IMG/VR virus record: IMGVR_UViG_3300030106_000204
Span: 1-30,338 of that record
Reading direction: 5' to 3' (one strand)
From: a virus
Length of the DNA stretch: 30,338 nucleotides
Part shown: one piece after another, positions 1-30,338 of the stretch
Layout of the letters: each line of letters begins with the position of its first letter
Numbering within the stretch: position 1 is the first letter of the stretch
Translations under genes and position numbers: made by a program
The notes under the pieces: generated by a model
What the model was told of the DNA's origin: nothing
Seen by the model: only the letters and a program-made list of their open reading frames with translations
Database searches by the model: none

Positions 1-8
1 GTAAATGA
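1..8 (+). CDS. 3' end fragment of 60-aa basic protein gene
   Basis: Only the last codons (a split Gly codon, Lys, stop) are present. They are identical to the end of the 29496-29678 gene, and the same ATGA overlap leads into the next gene. This shows that the window begins inside a gene, as expected for a circular genome cut at an arbitrary point. Confidence 0.7.
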
Positions 9-160
9 CAGGTTTTACAACTACAGCTACTATTATTGAATTAATAGGCAAAAGACCTATAAAATCAAAAAGAAGAAGAACCAGAAAGAACAAAATGCCC
101 TTTAAAGGCAGTTTAAAGGCGGTACAGCGACTTTTGCCCACTAGAAGGATAAAGTACTAG
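5..160 (+). CDS. 51-aa basic protein, left copy
   Basis: Short open frame from the ATG at 5, overlapping the preceding stop as ATGA, to TAG at 158-160. The protein has a Thr-rich start, a Lys/Arg-rich centre (residues about 16-31) and a conserved C-terminal part containing AVQRLLPTR. The right-hand homologue at 29675-29830 has the same length. Most differences are conservative (Lys/Arg, Phe/Tyr) and there are no indels, which argues for a real, selected protein. It ends 9 bp from the convergent VRR-NUC stop. No function is recognised; nucleic-acid binding is only a guess from charge. Confidence 0.7.
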   Translation: MTGFTTTATIIELIGKRPIKSKRRRTRKNKMPFKGSLKAVQRLLPTRRIKY

Positions 161-178
161 GTGTAATCCTCAACACCT
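159..178. terminator. Possible shared terminator between convergent genes
   Basis: AGGTGT (159-164) pairs with ACACCT (173-178) across an 8-nt loop at the junction of two convergent genes. The same hairpin is kept at 29829-29848. There is no U-tract on either strand and the stem overlaps both coding ends, so a terminator role is only plausible. Confidence 0.3.
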
Positions 179-532
179 CACAGGAATGTTTTTTTCAATG
201 ATTTGTTTGATTTGATCTAAACATTCAGTTAAACCCCCCTTGACCACAAAGTGAGGTGTACCAAGTGCTTTCGATTGTACCGCCCACAACTTTTGAGAAT
301 CAGACAACCTACCCTTTTCATTTTTCAGTTCAATATAAAGAACCCGCCCTTCTGGATATTCAATAATTATATCTGGACAACCAGATTTCAAACCCATTTT
401 TTTCATCTTTGCATGGTAGGATATAGACCTTTTACCCTCATTAGGCACATGAAAATGTCTAAAAAAATAGTATTTACCTAGATAGTTTAGATATTCATTA
501 CAGGCTATTTGAATGTCTGATTCTTTAGTCAT
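170..532 (-). CDS. VRR-NUC domain nuclease, left copy
   Basis: 120-aa PD-(D/E)XK nuclease of the compact VRR-NUC family. Visible motifs are an early Glu (E5, MTKES), PNEGKR at 30-35, GCPDIII with D54, LYIELKNEKG with E68 and K70, then Q80; these are the expected metal-binding and catalytic positions. The family cleaves structured or branched DNA and in phages stands alone, as here; a role in recombination or genome processing is inferred. I place the start at ATG 532, because the right copy begins at exactly this Met while an upstream GTG (554-556) is not shared. With its right-hand copy it is the only minus-strand gene. Confidence 0.85.
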   Translation of the reverse strand: MTKESDIQIACNEYLNYLGKYYFFRHFHVPNEGKRSISYHAKMKKMGLKSGCPDIIIEYPEGRVLYIELKNEKGRLSDSQKLWAVQSKALGTPHFVVKGGLTECLDQIKQIIEKNIPVRC

Positions 533-533
533 A

Positions 534-608
534 AGGGTCTGTATATTCTGTTTCACTTCCTATAAATACTGCGATTTATTTAAGTACCTCGAAGAACAAC
601 AGACCCCT
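534..608. other. Inverted arms upstream of VRR-NUC
   Basis: AGGGTCTGT (534-542) is complementary to ACAGACCC (599-606), enclosing about 56 nt immediately upstream of the VRR-NUC start. In the right copy the same place holds a compact hairpin with different bases but the same geometry (CATAGGGG...CCCCTATG, 30200-30231). Loop and stem sequences changed while pairing remained, which hints at a selected structure; its role is unknown. Confidence 0.4.
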
Positions 609-614
609 ATGTGC

Positions 615-639
615 ATAGTAGAATTGGAGTTCTTACTAT
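615..639. promoter_or_regulatory. Conserved hairpin carrying the TTGGAGTTC motif (left)
   Basis: ATAGTAGAA (615-623) pairs with TTC-T-TACTAT (630-639) around the loop TTGGAG, with one bulged T. The loop and TTC arm are the same bases that precede four early start codons (near 793, 1099, 2225 and 5023), but no ATG follows at the same distance here. The block is nearly unchanged at 30233-30257, although neighbouring intergenic sequence differs strongly. Confidence 0.5.
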
Positions 640-731
640 ATTCCCACTTTTGAGGTTGGAGGAACATAATCAATTTACCAAAAAAATTTATATTTTACAA
701 CACTTTACAAAAAACTATTTAAAATCAAAAC

Positions 732-5908: not shown

Positions 5909-6403
5909 ATGAAAATAATTAAAGATTTTAAATTTACACTTTTTTATATTTTATCAATAGCTTTGATAAATGTTGGATTTGTATATGTGCCATTAATACC
6001 ATTTTATGACACTATGTACCCACCAATGAGTATTATTGTTGGTATAATATTTATTTTGAGAGATTTTGCACAAAAAGAAATTGGTCATAAAGTTTTTATT
6101 GCTATGTTAATTGGTGCATTTCTTAGTTATATAATGGCAAATCCTTATATAGCTGTAGCATCTTTAGTCGCTTTTTTAGTTTCTGAAACAGTTGATTGGG
6201 GTGTTTATAGTTTTACAAAAAAGCCTTTACATCAAAGAATATTATTTAGTTCATTATTATCGACACCAATAGATAGTGCTATATTTTTATTAATGATTGG
6301 AAATTTTAGCATATTAGCTACGTCAACAATGTTTGTAAGTAAAATGTTAGCGTGTCTAGTAATTTGGTATTGGTTAGGTAAAAAAAATGAAACATATGTA
6401 TGA
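5909..6403 (+). CDS. VUT/YhhQ-like 7-deazaguanine precursor transporter
   Basis: 164-aa membrane protein with about five or six hydrophobic segments. The central block RDFAQKEIGHKVFIAMLIGA and the later LVSETVDWGVYS and LSTPIDSAIF match the signature of the VUT family, whose member YhhQ imports preQ0/preQ1. It is shorter than bacterial YhhQ (about 220 aa), lacking mainly terminal segments. The gene lies two genes before a DpdA-like transglycosylase, so the likely job is to raise preQ0 supply for phage DNA modification; that role is inferred from pairing known in other phages. It acts in the inner membrane. Confidence 0.75.
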   Translation: MKIIKDFKFTLFYILSIALINVGFVYVPLIPFYDTMYPPMSIIVGIIFILRDFAQKEIGHKVFIAMLIGAFLSYIMANPYIAVASLVAFLVSETVDWGVYSFTKKPLHQRILFSSLLSTPIDSAIFLLMIGNFSILATSTMFVSKMLACLVIWYWLGKKNETYV

Positions 6404-6626
6404 TTTCAAATTAGTTTGTAGATGTCCTAATGATAAATCTGTAAATATTTATGATGTTGAAATAAAATCAGATGAAACTATTGAAGTTGAAGAATTTTCT
6501 AAAATACAAAATAGAATTTATAATCAATTTATGTTTCAAGAAGATTTGTTTGAAATAATAAAAGCCAGATTTGAATTTGTAAAAATTATTGGTTATCATT
6601 TAGGAGTAAAGGTTATATCTAAATGA
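6387..6626 (+). CDS. 79-aa unknown inside the deazaguanine cassette
   Basis: Alternating strand and helix pattern: strand (FKLVCRCP), strand pair (YDVEIKSDETIEVEE), helix (FSKIQNRI...FEIIKARF), strand (VKIIGYHLGVKVI). It has two close Cys at residues about 13 and 15. The order is loosely like half a T-fold enzyme (QueF/QueD/FolE class), which would suit preQ0 chemistry, but no family motif is certain. It overlaps both neighbours (17 bp with the transporter, ATGA with the DpdA-like gene), so expression is coupled. An alternative start is ATG 6396. Confidence 0.6.
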   Translation: MKHMYDFKLVCRCPNDKSVNIYDVEIKSDETIEVEEFSKIQNRIYNQFMFQEDLFEIIKARFEFVKIIGYHLGVKVISK

Positions 6627-7333
6627 TTCATTATCATGGAACACCTATTACCCCTAGAACTGAACTATATAAAATGAGTGGAAAACATTTTTGTGTTAGT
6701 TTTTATAGACCAGATGATATTGATATTTGTTTACAAATAGGTCAATCAGTTATGTTAGATAATGGTGCTTTTAGTGCTTTTAAAAAAGGTGAAAAATTAA
6801 ATTTTAAAAATTATTATAAATGGTTAGAGGACAAATTAGGACACCCTCATTGGTGTGTAATACCAGATATTATAGATGGTAGTATATCACAGCAAAAAAA
6901 ACTTTTGCTTCAATTTCCTTACCCACCAGAATTATCAGCACCAGTTTGGCATATTGGATTAGATATTGAGTATCTTTATTTTTTATTAGATAGATACCCA
7001 AAAGTTTGTTTTGGTAGTAGTGGAAAGTATTGGAGTGTTGGTTCTTTACAATGGTGTCAAAGAATTGATTTTGTTTTTAATAATTTGATAAAAAAATATA
7101 AACATCTACCATATATTCATATGTTAAGAGGTTTATCAATGGGTGGAACTAAATACCCATTTGCATCTGCTGATAGTACAAATGTAGCTAGGAATTTTAA
7201 AACACTAAATAAATGTCCTGAAAAAATGGCAAGACAAATTGATTCAATGCAAAATCCTATTAATTGGAATAAAACTTTTAATCAACAAGAACTTTTTGAG
7301 GTAGAACATGAAGATAAAAAAAGCAAAAGATAG
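6623..7333 (+). CDS. dpdA: DpdA-like DNA guanine transglycosylase
   Basis: 236 aa related to tRNA-guanine transglycosylases. LDNGAF at 45-50 gives D46 in the place of the catalytic Asp of the TGT DSGGF motif; IPDIID at 80-85 supplies substrate-binding Asp; HMLRG at 166-170 replaces the HLLG-type motif; SADSTN at 182-187 places D184 as the probable nucleophile. There is no tRNA-specific zinc site. Short phage DpdA proteins exchange guanine in DNA for a 7-deazaguanine such as preQ0, protecting it from host restriction (established for related phages). No FolE, QueE or QueC gene is visible, so the base must be salvaged. Confidence 0.75.
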   Translation: MIHYHGTPITPRTELYKMSGKHFCVSFYRPDDIDICLQIGQSVMLDNGAFSAFKKGEKLNFKNYYKWLEDKLGHPHWCVIPDIIDGSISQQKKLLLQFPYPPELSAPVWHIGLDIEYLYFLLDRYPKVCFGSSGKYWSVGSLQWCQRIDFVFNNLIKKYKHLPYIHMLRGLSMGGTKYPFASADSTNVARNFKTLNKCPEKMARQIDSMQNPINWNKTFNQQELFEVEHEDKKSKR

Positions 7334-7602: not shown

Positions 7603-7830
7603 ATGTTAGTTAGTACAAATATAAAATATCAATCCAAAAAAATGAGTTTGGTTGAATCTTTTGTTAATGTTTTTATAGGTTATATTGTTGCTGTAATAGC
7701 TAATTTAGCTGTACTTCCTTTATTTGGCTATAATGTTACATTTATTGATGGTTCTTTAATTGGACTAGCATTTACAATCATAAGTTTGATTAGAACATAT
7801 ATAATTAGAAGAATATTTAATTACAGGTGA
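7603..7830 (+). CDS. DUF7220-like small membrane protein
   Basis: 75 aa (62 if translation starts at Met 14, ATG 7642). The pattern SLVESFVNVFIGYIVAVIANL, shortened here to its key part VNVFIGYIVAV, then PLFGYN, a second hydrophobic helix and RTYIIRRIFN resembles the two-helix DUF7220 family found in many phages. Function is unknown. It lies between the modification genes and the methyltransferase. No good ribosome site is seen for either start. Confidence 0.65.
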   Translation: MLVSTNIKYQSKKMSLVESFVNVFIGYIVAVIANLAVLPLFGYNVTFIDGSLIGLAFTIISLIRTYIIRRIFNYR

Positions 7831-7833
7831 TTT

Positions 7834-9024
7834 ATGAACATTCAAGAAATAGAAATTGAAAAATTAATACCTTATCATAACAACCCTAGAAAAGACCAAG
7901 CGGTTGATAAAGTTGCCAGTTCAATAAATGAATATGGTTTTCAGCAACCTATAGTGGTTGATAAAAATATGGTTCTAATTGTTGGTCATACTCGTTTGAT
8001 GGGTGCAAAAAAACTAGGTTTAAAAAAAGTACCAGTAACTATAGCAAACTTATCTGAGTCTAAAGCTAAAGCCTACAGGATTGCGGATAATAGGTTAAAT
8101 GAAGATAGTGCATGGGATTTTGATTTATTGGATATAGAAATAAAAAACTTATTAGATGATGATTACAATATAGATTTGTTAGGTTTTGATTCATCTGAAT
8201 TAGATAAGTTTTTAAAAAATGATGAGCAATATTTAACAGATGAAGATGAAGTTCCAGAACCACCCAAAGAACCAAATTCAAAACTTGGTGACATTTATGA
8301 ACTAGGAGAGCATAGGTTAATGTGCGGAGATAGTACTAAAGAAAGTGATATCATTAAACTAATGAATGGACAAAAAGCAGAAATGGTATTTACTGACCCA
8401 CCTTATGGAATGTTTTTAGAAACTGATTATAGTAAAATTAAAGGTAGCGAAAAGTCAATAGGTTTTAAAGGTAATAAAAAGGGTAATAAATATAATAAAA
8501 TTTTAGGGGATAATGAAGATTTTACAGATTTGTTAATATCTAACATTTTTAAAAACTTTAAATACTGCAAAGAAATCTTTATATGGGGTGGTGATTATTT
8601 TGTTGATTTATTGCCTAATTATGGAAAAGATGGTAGTTGGTTTGTATGGAATAAAAGAAGTTCTGAAGCACAGCAAAAAGGCATTGGAAATTGTTTTGAA
8701 TTATTATGGTCTAAAAAAAAACACAAGAGAATAGTTTATGATTTTGAGTGGTTTGGTTTTTTAAGTAAAGATGACCCTAAAGAAGCAAGAAACAGACTTC
8801 ACCCTTCAATGAAGCCCACGATATTACTCACTAAAATAATAGAAAGTTATTCTGAAAAAAACAATTTAATAGCAGATATTTATTTAGGTAGTGGCTCAAC
8901 ATTAATAGCTTGTGAAAAAACAAAAAGAAAATGTTATGGTATTGAACTAGACCCTACATATGTAGATGTAATAATTCAAAGATGGGAAAACTTTACTGGC
9001 AAGAAAGCCAAAAAAATTAATTAG
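7834..9024 (+). CDS. ParB-domain DNA methyltransferase (N6-A or N4-C)
   Basis: 396 aa in two parts. Residues 1-110 form a ParB/Srx-type domain (LIPYHNNPR, VGHTRLMGAKKLG, YRIADNRLNE). Residues about 150-396 form an amino-methyltransferase with DPPY at 188-191, then HPSMKP and, near the end, DIYLGSGSTLIACE (AdoMet motif) and GIELDP. Catalytic motif before AdoMet motif is the beta-class order. Such fusions are common in phages and likely methylate phage DNA against restriction. Its site cannot be predicted. AGGTGA precedes ATG 7834. It is the last gene before the packaging block. Confidence 0.88.
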   Translation: MNIQEIEIEKLIPYHNNPRKDQAVDKVASSINEYGFQQPIVVDKNMVLIVGHTRLMGAKKLGLKKVPVTIANLSESKAKAYRIADNRLNEDSAWDFDLLDIEIKNLLDDDYNIDLLGFDSSELDKFLKNDEQYLTDEDEVPEPPKEPNSKLGDIYELGEHRLMCGDSTKESDIIKLMNGQKAEMVFTDPPYGMFLETDYSKIKGSEKSIGFKGNKKGNKYNKILGDNEDFTDLLISNIFKNFKYCKEIFIWGGDYFVDLLPNYGKDGSWFVWNKRSSEAQQKGIGNCFELLWSKKKHKRIVYDFEWFGFLSKDDPKEARNRLHPSMKPTILLTKIIESYSEKNNLIADIYLGSGSTLIACEKTKRKCYGIELDPTYVDVIIQRWENFTGKKAKKIN

Positions 9025-29495: not shown

Positions 29496-29678
29496 ATGGT
29501 TCTAGTAAAATCTATAAAAAAATTTACTGAGGGTTTGACCGCTAGACAACGAAAAACTATGAATAGTCATGCAAGACATCATTCACTAAAACATATGCGG
29601 TCAATGGCAAATTCTATGAAAAAAGGTTCTACTTTTGCGGAAGCACATAGAAAAGCTATGAGGTCTGTAGGTAAATGA
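29496..29678 (+). CDS. Small conserved basic phage protein, 60 aa
   Basis: LTARQRKTMNSHARHHSLKHM followed by MKKGSTFAEAHRKAMRSVGK is a pattern found in short phage proteins of unknown function: an HxxHHxxKH cluster and a GxTFxxAHxxAMxxVG end. Very basic and His-rich, helical. The stop overlaps the next ATG (ATGA). Bases 1-8 of the window are the end of its left copy. Confidence 0.7.
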   Translation: MVLVKSIKKFTEGLTARQRKTMNSHARHHSLKHMRSMANSMKKGSTFAEAHRKAMRSVGK

Positions 29679-29830
29679 CAGGTTTTACAACTACAGCTAC
29701 TATATCCGAACTTATAGATAAAAGACCTATGAGAAGAAGAAAGACTAGGACAAAGAAGAACAAAATGCCCTATAAGGGCGATTTGAGGGCAGTACAGCGA
29801 CTTTTGCCCACTAGAAGCATAAAGCACTAG
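29675..29830 (+). CDS. 51-aa basic protein, right copy
   Basis: Same length and plan as the left copy (5-160): Thr-rich start, Lys/Arg-rich centre, AVQRLLPTR near the end. About 14 residues differ, mostly Lys/Arg and Phe/Tyr exchanges, and the first nine codons are identical at base level. Here the complete upstream gene is present, showing its place as the last of five tiny basic genes. Confidence 0.7.
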   Translation: MTGFTTTATISELIDKRPMRRRKTRTKKNKMPYKGDLRAVQRLLPTRSIKH

Positions 29831-29839
29831 GTGTAATCC

Positions 29840-30202
29840 TCAACACCTTACAGGAATGTTTTTTTCAATGATTTGTTTGATTTGGTCTAAACATTCAGTT
29901 AAACCCCCCTTGACCACAAAGTAAGGTGTACCAAGTGCTTTCGATTGTACTGCCCACAACTTTTGAGAATCAGACAATCTACCCTTTTCATTTTTCAATT
30001 CAATATAAAGAACCCGCCCTTGTGGATATTCAATAATTATATCTGGGCAACCAGATTTCAAACCCATTTTTTTCATTTTTGCATGATACGATATAGACCT
30101 TTTGCCCTCATTAGGTACATGGAAATGTCTAAAAAAATAGTATTTACCTAGATAATTTAGATATTCATTACAGGCTATTTGAATGTGTGATTCTTTAGTC
30201 AT
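29840..30202 (-). CDS. VRR-NUC domain nuclease, right copy
   Basis: 120 aa, differing from the left copy at three positions (residues 6, 61 and 94), none in the catalytic motifs GCPDIII, IELKNEKG or Q80. It runs convergent to the 51-aa gene with a 9-bp gap. ATG 30202 is the only good shared start and supports ATG 532 for the left copy. Confidence 0.87.
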   Translation of the reverse strand: MTKESHIQIACNEYLNYLGKYYFFRHFHVPNEGKRSISYHAKMKKMGLKSGCPDIIIEYPQGRVLYIELKNEKGRLSDSQKLWAVQSKALGTPYFVVKGGLTECLDQIKQIIEKNIPVRC

Positions 30203-30231
30203 AGGGGATAAACCTAAATTTACCCCCTATG
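30200..30231. other. Hairpin upstream of VRR-NUC (right)
   Basis: CATAGGGG (30200-30207) pairs with CCCCTATG (30224-30231), extended by TAAA/TTTA, with a short loop. It includes the start codon of the minus-strand nuclease, so RNA folding could limit its translation. The left copy keeps arms in the same place with other bases (534-542 and 599-606). Confidence 0.5.
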
Positions 30232-30232
30232 T

Positions 30233-30257
30233 ATAGTAGAATTGGAGTTCTTACTAT
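30233..30257. promoter_or_regulatory. Conserved hairpin carrying the TTGGAGTTC motif (right)
   Basis: ATAGTAGAA, loop TTGGAG, TTC-T-TACTAT, identical to 615-639. It is followed at 30258-30283 by a nearly identical stretch containing GGTTGGAGGAACAT. Conservation is higher than in the flanking noncoding bases, so it is probably functional. Confidence 0.5.
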
Positions 30258-30338
30258 ATTCCTACTTTGAGGTTGGAGGAACATTTTCAATGTATCACAG
30301 AAAACCCATATTTTACAATACATTAAAAAAAAAATAAC

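Follow-up and report, generated by a model that had tools for sequence, protein, structure and literature searches.

Phage DpdA, phage homologues of YhhQ and phage QueF-Like (QueF-L) proteins accompanied by full pathways are already known (PMC6884629, PMC7472734). Clusters of the CAjan and vB_StuS_MMDA13 types contain FolE, QueD, QueE, QueC and DpdA, along with a preQ0 transporter or QueF-L. The DpdA-only ("group 3") phages, which include Salmonella phage 7-11 and Pantoea phage MED16 (PMC6884629, PMC8306585), carry a short DpdA/TGT-like gene and no preQ0 synthesis genes. They have posed a puzzle as to the source of their modified base; the hosts of 7-11 and MED16 are thought to make preQ0 themselves. 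Both phages have dADG in their DNA: about 0.02% of G in 7-11 (PMC6884629) and about 0.13% in MED16, where this trace produces no visible block of restriction (PMC8306585). Bases of the 7-deazaguanine type are usually proposed to shield DNA from restriction (PMC6884629). About 9% of bacterial dpd islands have YhhQ close by (PMC11888242); a 2019 survey reported YhhQ as uncorrelated with any phage group (PMC6884629).

The window analyzed here, a whole stretch of 30,338 nucleotides of DNA from a small marine phage, likewise contains a short DpdA-like gene and no preQ0 synthesis genes; its DpdA is about 38-39% identical to those of 7-11 and MED16. In the stretches of these two phages that were read, no VUT or QueF-like gene lies beside DpdA, whereas the window has both.

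Layout of the locus

The cassette, together with the neighboring modification gene, is composed as follows:

5909..6403, + strand: VUT/YhhQ (QPTR, PF02592) family transporter, 164 aa (Pfam, PHROGs)
6387..6626, + strand: predicted minimal QueF-Like T-fold protein, 79 aa, phrog_37496 (PDB profile, fold)
6623..7333, + strand: predicted short DpdA / TGT-like transglycosylase, 236 aa (phrog_887, fold)
7834..9024, + strand: ParB-DNA methyltransferase fusion, neighbor gene (Pfam, PHROGs)

Coupling is tight across the three overlapping genes: the transporter gene runs 17 nt into the middle ORF, which in turn shares an ATGA stop/start with the DpdA gene. The initial annotation had described the two outer genes as coupled; the coupling is indeed tight, but the coupled gene between them had been overlooked. 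The motifs on which that annotation was based are present, RDFAQKEIGHK and SETVDWGVYS in the transporter ORF, LDNGAF, IPDIID, HMLRG and SADSTN in the transglycosylase ORF. Its statement that FolE, QueD, QueE and QueC are missing also holds, as none was found by Pfam scan among the 38 ORFs of the window. With synthesis genes absent and a QPTR-type transporter present, the phage would thus depend on imported or host preQ0, as had been proposed. No DpdB or restriction genes were seen in the window.

A primosomal-type gene lies on one side of the cassette and a DNA methyltransferase gene on the other. The latter, a ParB fusion, matches Pfam N6_N4_Mtase (E 3.8e-19), ParB_N (E 2.6e-9) and phrog_498 (E 7.5e-106). 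It is a second DNA-modification gene of this 30-kb genome, adjoining the deazaguanine module without being a member of it. A small membrane protein of the DUF7220 type (E 7e-26) is encoded at 7603-7830, in the interval from DpdA to the methyltransferase gene. The structural genes include an SPP1-type portal, a tape measure, and genes of tail-terminator-like and distal-tail-like type, a set that fits a siphovirus. The two ends of the window (1-714 and 29671-30332), each carrying a VRR-NUC-type nuclease gene, are homologous yet just 83.5% identical; they look like a terminal duplication, or like the result of over-assembling a circular genome present as two strains.

The proteins of the cassette

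The VUT/YhhQ-like nature proposed for the transporter is supported by Pfam Vut_1 (PF02592), matched with E 6.9e-8 and 33.4 bits, above the gathering score of 27.2, and by phrog_4899 (E 2e-34); the family assignments of both outer genes lie well beyond what chance would give. Against TIGR00697 (queuosine precursor transporter) it scores 29.8 bits, under the equivalog cut-off of 50.95: the protein appears to be a shortened, divergent QPTR member, whose substrate is not assured. It is about 42% identical to the products of Escherichia phage genes annotated as (putative) preQ0 transporter, and is predicted to import preQ0 or a related 7-deazaguanine base. QPTR transporters normally supply tRNA modification.

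For the 236-aa protein, phrog_887, "queuine tRNA-ribosyltransferase", is matched with E 2.5e-45, and homologues are found in 102 phage records. No match was obtained in Pfam or NCBIfam scans, nor by phmmer/hmmsearch against PDB sequences, and profile-profile comparison (hhalign) with canonical host TGT was insignificant; sequence alone does not link this protein to TGT. Its AlphaFold (AF2) model, with a pLDDT of 90, is a (beta/alpha) barrel. Plain Foldseek returned generic barrels alone, with E 2e-3 or worse, and TGT was singled out solely by VIA re-alignment of the Foldseek candidates, which gave Z 13-14.6: a Cap10 structure is on top (Z 14.6), its entry being annotated as in a Cap10-CdnD complex with NDG modification, followed by archaeosine TGT 1iq8 (Z 14.5) and Z. 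mobilis TGT (Z about 13), the two TGTs aligning over about 200 residues. The TGT-type barrel, whose lack would have counted against the initial annotation, was thus found. D46 (in LDNGAF) and D184 (in SADSTN) are invariant in 62 relatives from viral contigs. A profile alignment of low confidence places D46 on the Asp of TGT DSGGFQ; judging from strand order, D184 would be the equivalent of the TGT nucleophile. From family and fold, the protein is a short DpdA/TGT-like enzyme, predicted to swap guanine in DNA for a 7-deazaguanine.

The middle ORF is filed under "unknown function" in PHROGs (phrog_37496). When a profile built from 21 sequences of its family was compared with all PDB sequences, the QueF-Like archaeosine synthase 5jyx was found with E 6.1e-5, the next match being unrelated (E 0.12). 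One member of the family matches NCBIfam QueF-II (E 8.5e-4); the 79-aa protein itself stays under every curated QueF cut-off, and the Pfam QueF model does not recognize it. Its AlphaFold (AF2) model, with a pLDDT of 94.8, is a beta2-alpha2-beta2 T-fold, for which the best 13 Foldseek matches are all QueF-Like. By VIA, all 79 residues align to QueF-Like with Z 12.0 and an rmsd of 1.5 A; the T-folds ranked behind it are GTP cyclohydrolase I and QueF, at Z 9.3. Two other assignments were considered and rejected: QueD, since the profile comparison was insignificant and QueF-L is clearly ahead in fold, and FolE, judged by fold, where it ranks below QueF-L by VIA (Z 9.3 vs 12.0).

The catalytic residues are partly retained. 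C13 corresponds, in the HMMER alignment, to QueF-L Cys21, the thioimide Cys, and E52 to the substrate Glu of QueF FHE; both are invariant in the 21 sequences. Comparison by hhalign with QueF from host genomes (E 0.0014) also pairs C13 with the Cys of QueF CP, and QE52 with FHE. The general-acid Asp28 of QueF-L (C+7) aligns with N20, and only 4 of the 21 members have Asp at this position; His71 is invariant. Features common to the family are CP, Asp/Asn at Cys+3, VE/AE, a QE or HE pair, and the invariant His. Where QueF has ESKSLK, the window protein has IEVEEFSK, resembling AIEEFKK of QueF-L, which argues against an NADPH reductase. Homologues adjoin DpdA in Sinorhizobium, Microcystis and Pseudomonas phages and in viral contigs.

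On the basis of profile and modeled fold, the 79-aa protein appears to be a minimal QueF-Like T-fold, related to the archaeal enzyme that makes archaeosine, and is predicted to act as a tailoring enzyme on the preQ0 base or on preQ0 in DNA. The transporter and the inserter, taken by the initial annotation as the whole system, are therefore not all of it, and a further tailoring step is to be expected. In Caulobacter phage DMCA (L013, 5705-6001), a short ORF annotated as 6-carboxytetrahydropterin synthase lies directly upstream of a short DpdA, and is possibly another tailoring or partner gene.

Recurrence of the module and preQ0 supply

Linkage was evaluated on 131 DpdA loci of this lineage, grouped into 102 clusters at 90% identity; 91 clusters have both flanks of at least 1.2 kb. 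The transporter gene adjoins DpdA in 66 of the 102 clusters and in 59 of the 91 with intact flanks, upstream in 23 and downstream in 36. The small QueF-like gene adjoins DpdA in 21 of the 102, and the next commonest other neighbor family in 11. Along the DpdA tree, presence and side of the transporter change 22 times, against 47.9 in shuffles, while presence of the small gene changes 18 times, against 19.5. Despite some rearrangement, the transporter tracks the DpdA lineage; the small gene comes and goes freely, as an optional third member of the module with a scattered distribution.

The nearest relative by DpdA (L021, 87% identical) carries its cassette in the same slot as the window, between the primosomal-type gene and the ParB-methyltransferase, which there too lies downstream of DpdA. 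Its transporter is directly against DpdA, with no small gene: the middle gene is thus not essential for insertion. Searches with the small protein, run with a single protein as query, added three viral contigs, all with the order transporter, small gene, DpdA, and found DpdA beside the small gene in 4 of 4 phage records. The small gene was found in none of 385 genomes from the class of an Ensifer host, while the positive control recovered 3 of 3 known carriers. The two- or three-gene module recurs in dozens of phages and prophages. Among cultured phages, Rhizobium phage RHph_X2_30 has all three genes; Pseudanabaena phage Pam5 and Rhizobium phage RHph_N3_2 have the transporter but lack a QueF-like gene, and Microcystis phage Mae-JY30 and Pseudomonas phage Epa33 have the QueF-like gene but no transporter adjoining it. 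The initial annotation had called the system very reduced, which needs qualifying because of such recurrence.

Other genes were observed at these loci. Two DpdA-like genes, about 740 bases apart, are present in one viral locus (L046, 4995-5684 and 6425-7123). PAPS-reductase-like genes, with an ISFSGGRTS motif, lie near DpdA in eight loci, examples being L090 (6611-7435), L137/L138 (457-1305) and L012 (1-657).

The large terminase of the window aligns from end to end, at 56-57% identity, with its closest counterparts, those of Pelagibacter phages HTVC026P, HTVC111P, HTVC112P and HTVC202P, and the early-to-structural gene order of HTVC026P is similar. Judged from gene homology, SAR11 (Pelagibacter) is therefore the likely host. 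In the stretch of HTVC026P that was read, no cassette of this kind is annotated. A 2024 study grouped Pelagibacter with bacteria encoding only tgt of the pathway, plus a QPTR transporter, for which preQ1 salvage has been proposed (PMC11570991); with such a host, phage and cell would both depend on import. The substrate of the phage transporter may be either preQ0 or preQ1; QueF-L chemistry needs the preQ0 nitrile. Among 17 prophage hosts, 15 have a long QueC match and two only short, weak ones. In these two (genomes of L105 and L119), the DpdA loci both carry the transporter, a pairing which is suggestive, the cases being too few to conclude.

Interpretation and comparison with known systems

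The genes and families identified above, their folds, the invariant residues and the recurrent linkage are best explained by a cassette of three genes that would modify phage DNA with a salvaged 7-deazaguanine, through import, insertion and tailoring, with restriction resistance as its likely purpose; this reading is favored with modest confidence. VUT would make more preQ0 (or preQ1) available where the host cannot synthesize it, and the short DpdA would swap guanine of phage DNA for the imported base, by a TGT-type base exchange. The 79-aa protein would then form, via Cys13, a thioimide on the preQ0 nitrile, to be turned into a tailored group; in the simplest case this is the archaeosine formamidine (dG+), made with ammonia in the manner of QueF-L acting on preQ0-tRNA. 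In this scheme we infer the substrates, the targeting of DNA, the nature of the tailored product and any protective effect. When preQ0 is in tRNA, ammonia turns over the QueF-L thioimide, which does not happen with free preQ0 (PMC5485725); tailoring is for this reason placed after insertion, and the most likely order would be preQ0 import, exchange into DNA by DpdA, and conversion in place by the QueF-L relative. The end product would probably be tailored, in the form of dG+ or a related base, and not dPreQ0 as such; as the active site differs from that of QueF-L, an amide (dADG) or another group may also result. The change of Asp28 into Asn20, the missed curated cut-offs, the lack of the middle gene in the nearest relative and the trace levels of dADG count against this explanation. 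A narrower version, which we put forward as possible though somewhat doubtful, is that of a minimal, salvage-only route to archaeosine-type phage DNA, where an importer and a short DpdA, joined by a 79-aa relative of QueF-L whose active site is rearranged (no Asp28, but an invariant His71), would serve SAR11-type phages in hosts making no preQ0, and protection of phage DNA would depend on a base scavenged from seawater.

The lost general acid might also mean that the cassette only imports and inserts, leaving dPreQ0 in DNA, and that the 79-aa T-fold is a non-catalytic partner of DpdA, such as a base-binding or DNA-recognition subunit. Its size, smaller than QueF-L, its constant position beside DpdA and the many DpdA relatives that manage without it agree with this possibility. 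Yet every member keeps the substrate Glu and also a Cys that mere binding would not need, and the scattered pattern of gain and loss is easier to reconcile with tailoring by an optional enzyme than with a subunit that is required; the proposal is considered rather unlikely. The target could, on the other hand, be tRNA or another host molecule, the cassette tuning host translation or tRNA queuosine supply: the TGT fold, the PHROGs name, the usual role of QPTR transporters in feeding tRNA modification and, for a tRNA or other target, the Cap10-CdnD annotation of the best fold match all point this way. Such a target is made improbable by the short length of the enzyme, with its insignificant profile match to canonical TGT, by the flanking primosomal-type and methyltransferase genes, and by the deazaguanine found in DNA of the relatives 7-11 and MED16 (PMC6884629, PMC8306585).

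Three intact frames, residues invariant across many divergent viruses and a maintained importer linkage are hardly what would be expected of a decayed cassette, modifying nothing. The DpdA-only Mycobacterium phage Orion has DpdA yet no modification (PMC6884629), and the trace levels in 7-11 and MED16 go in the same direction; however, the Orion host is without preQ0 synthesis, which is exactly what an importer would address, and we give this last explanation very little weight.

What stands out is the strong association of one DpdA lineage with an importer gene, and with a predicted tailoring gene that annotation had missed. Under the favored reading, that of import, insertion and tailoring, dG+ or a related base, instead of dPreQ0, is predicted in a definable subset of viruses. 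If true, protection of phage DNA would be linked to micronutrients scavenged in the ocean. Neither the lineage-specific transporter linkage nor the 79-aa QueF-L relative was found in the literature searched, which covers the deazaguanine field incompletely, so that priority is uncertain.

Among known systems, the Pyrobaculum QueF-Like protein (PDB 5jyx, 5k0p) shares with the window protein the T-fold, CP with the thioimide Cys, the conserved Glu and the lack of ESKSLK. It is longer, about 105 aa against 79, and acts on preQ0-tRNA, whereas the window protein is virus-encoded, has Asn in place of the general-acid Asp, and features the additional invariant His71. With CAjan-type and MMDA13-type clusters the module shares roles, namely the transporter (CAjan), QueF-L (MMDA13, PMC7472734) and DpdA; those clusters carry the whole preQ0 pathway, while the module in the window has no synthesis genes, and CAjan DpdA is 306 aa long, compared to 236 aa. 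Bacterial dpd islands (dpdABC, dpdD-K) have DpdA-type insertion in common with the window; linkage to the transporter is far more frequent in the lineage of the window DpdA (59 of 91) than in these islands (about 9%).
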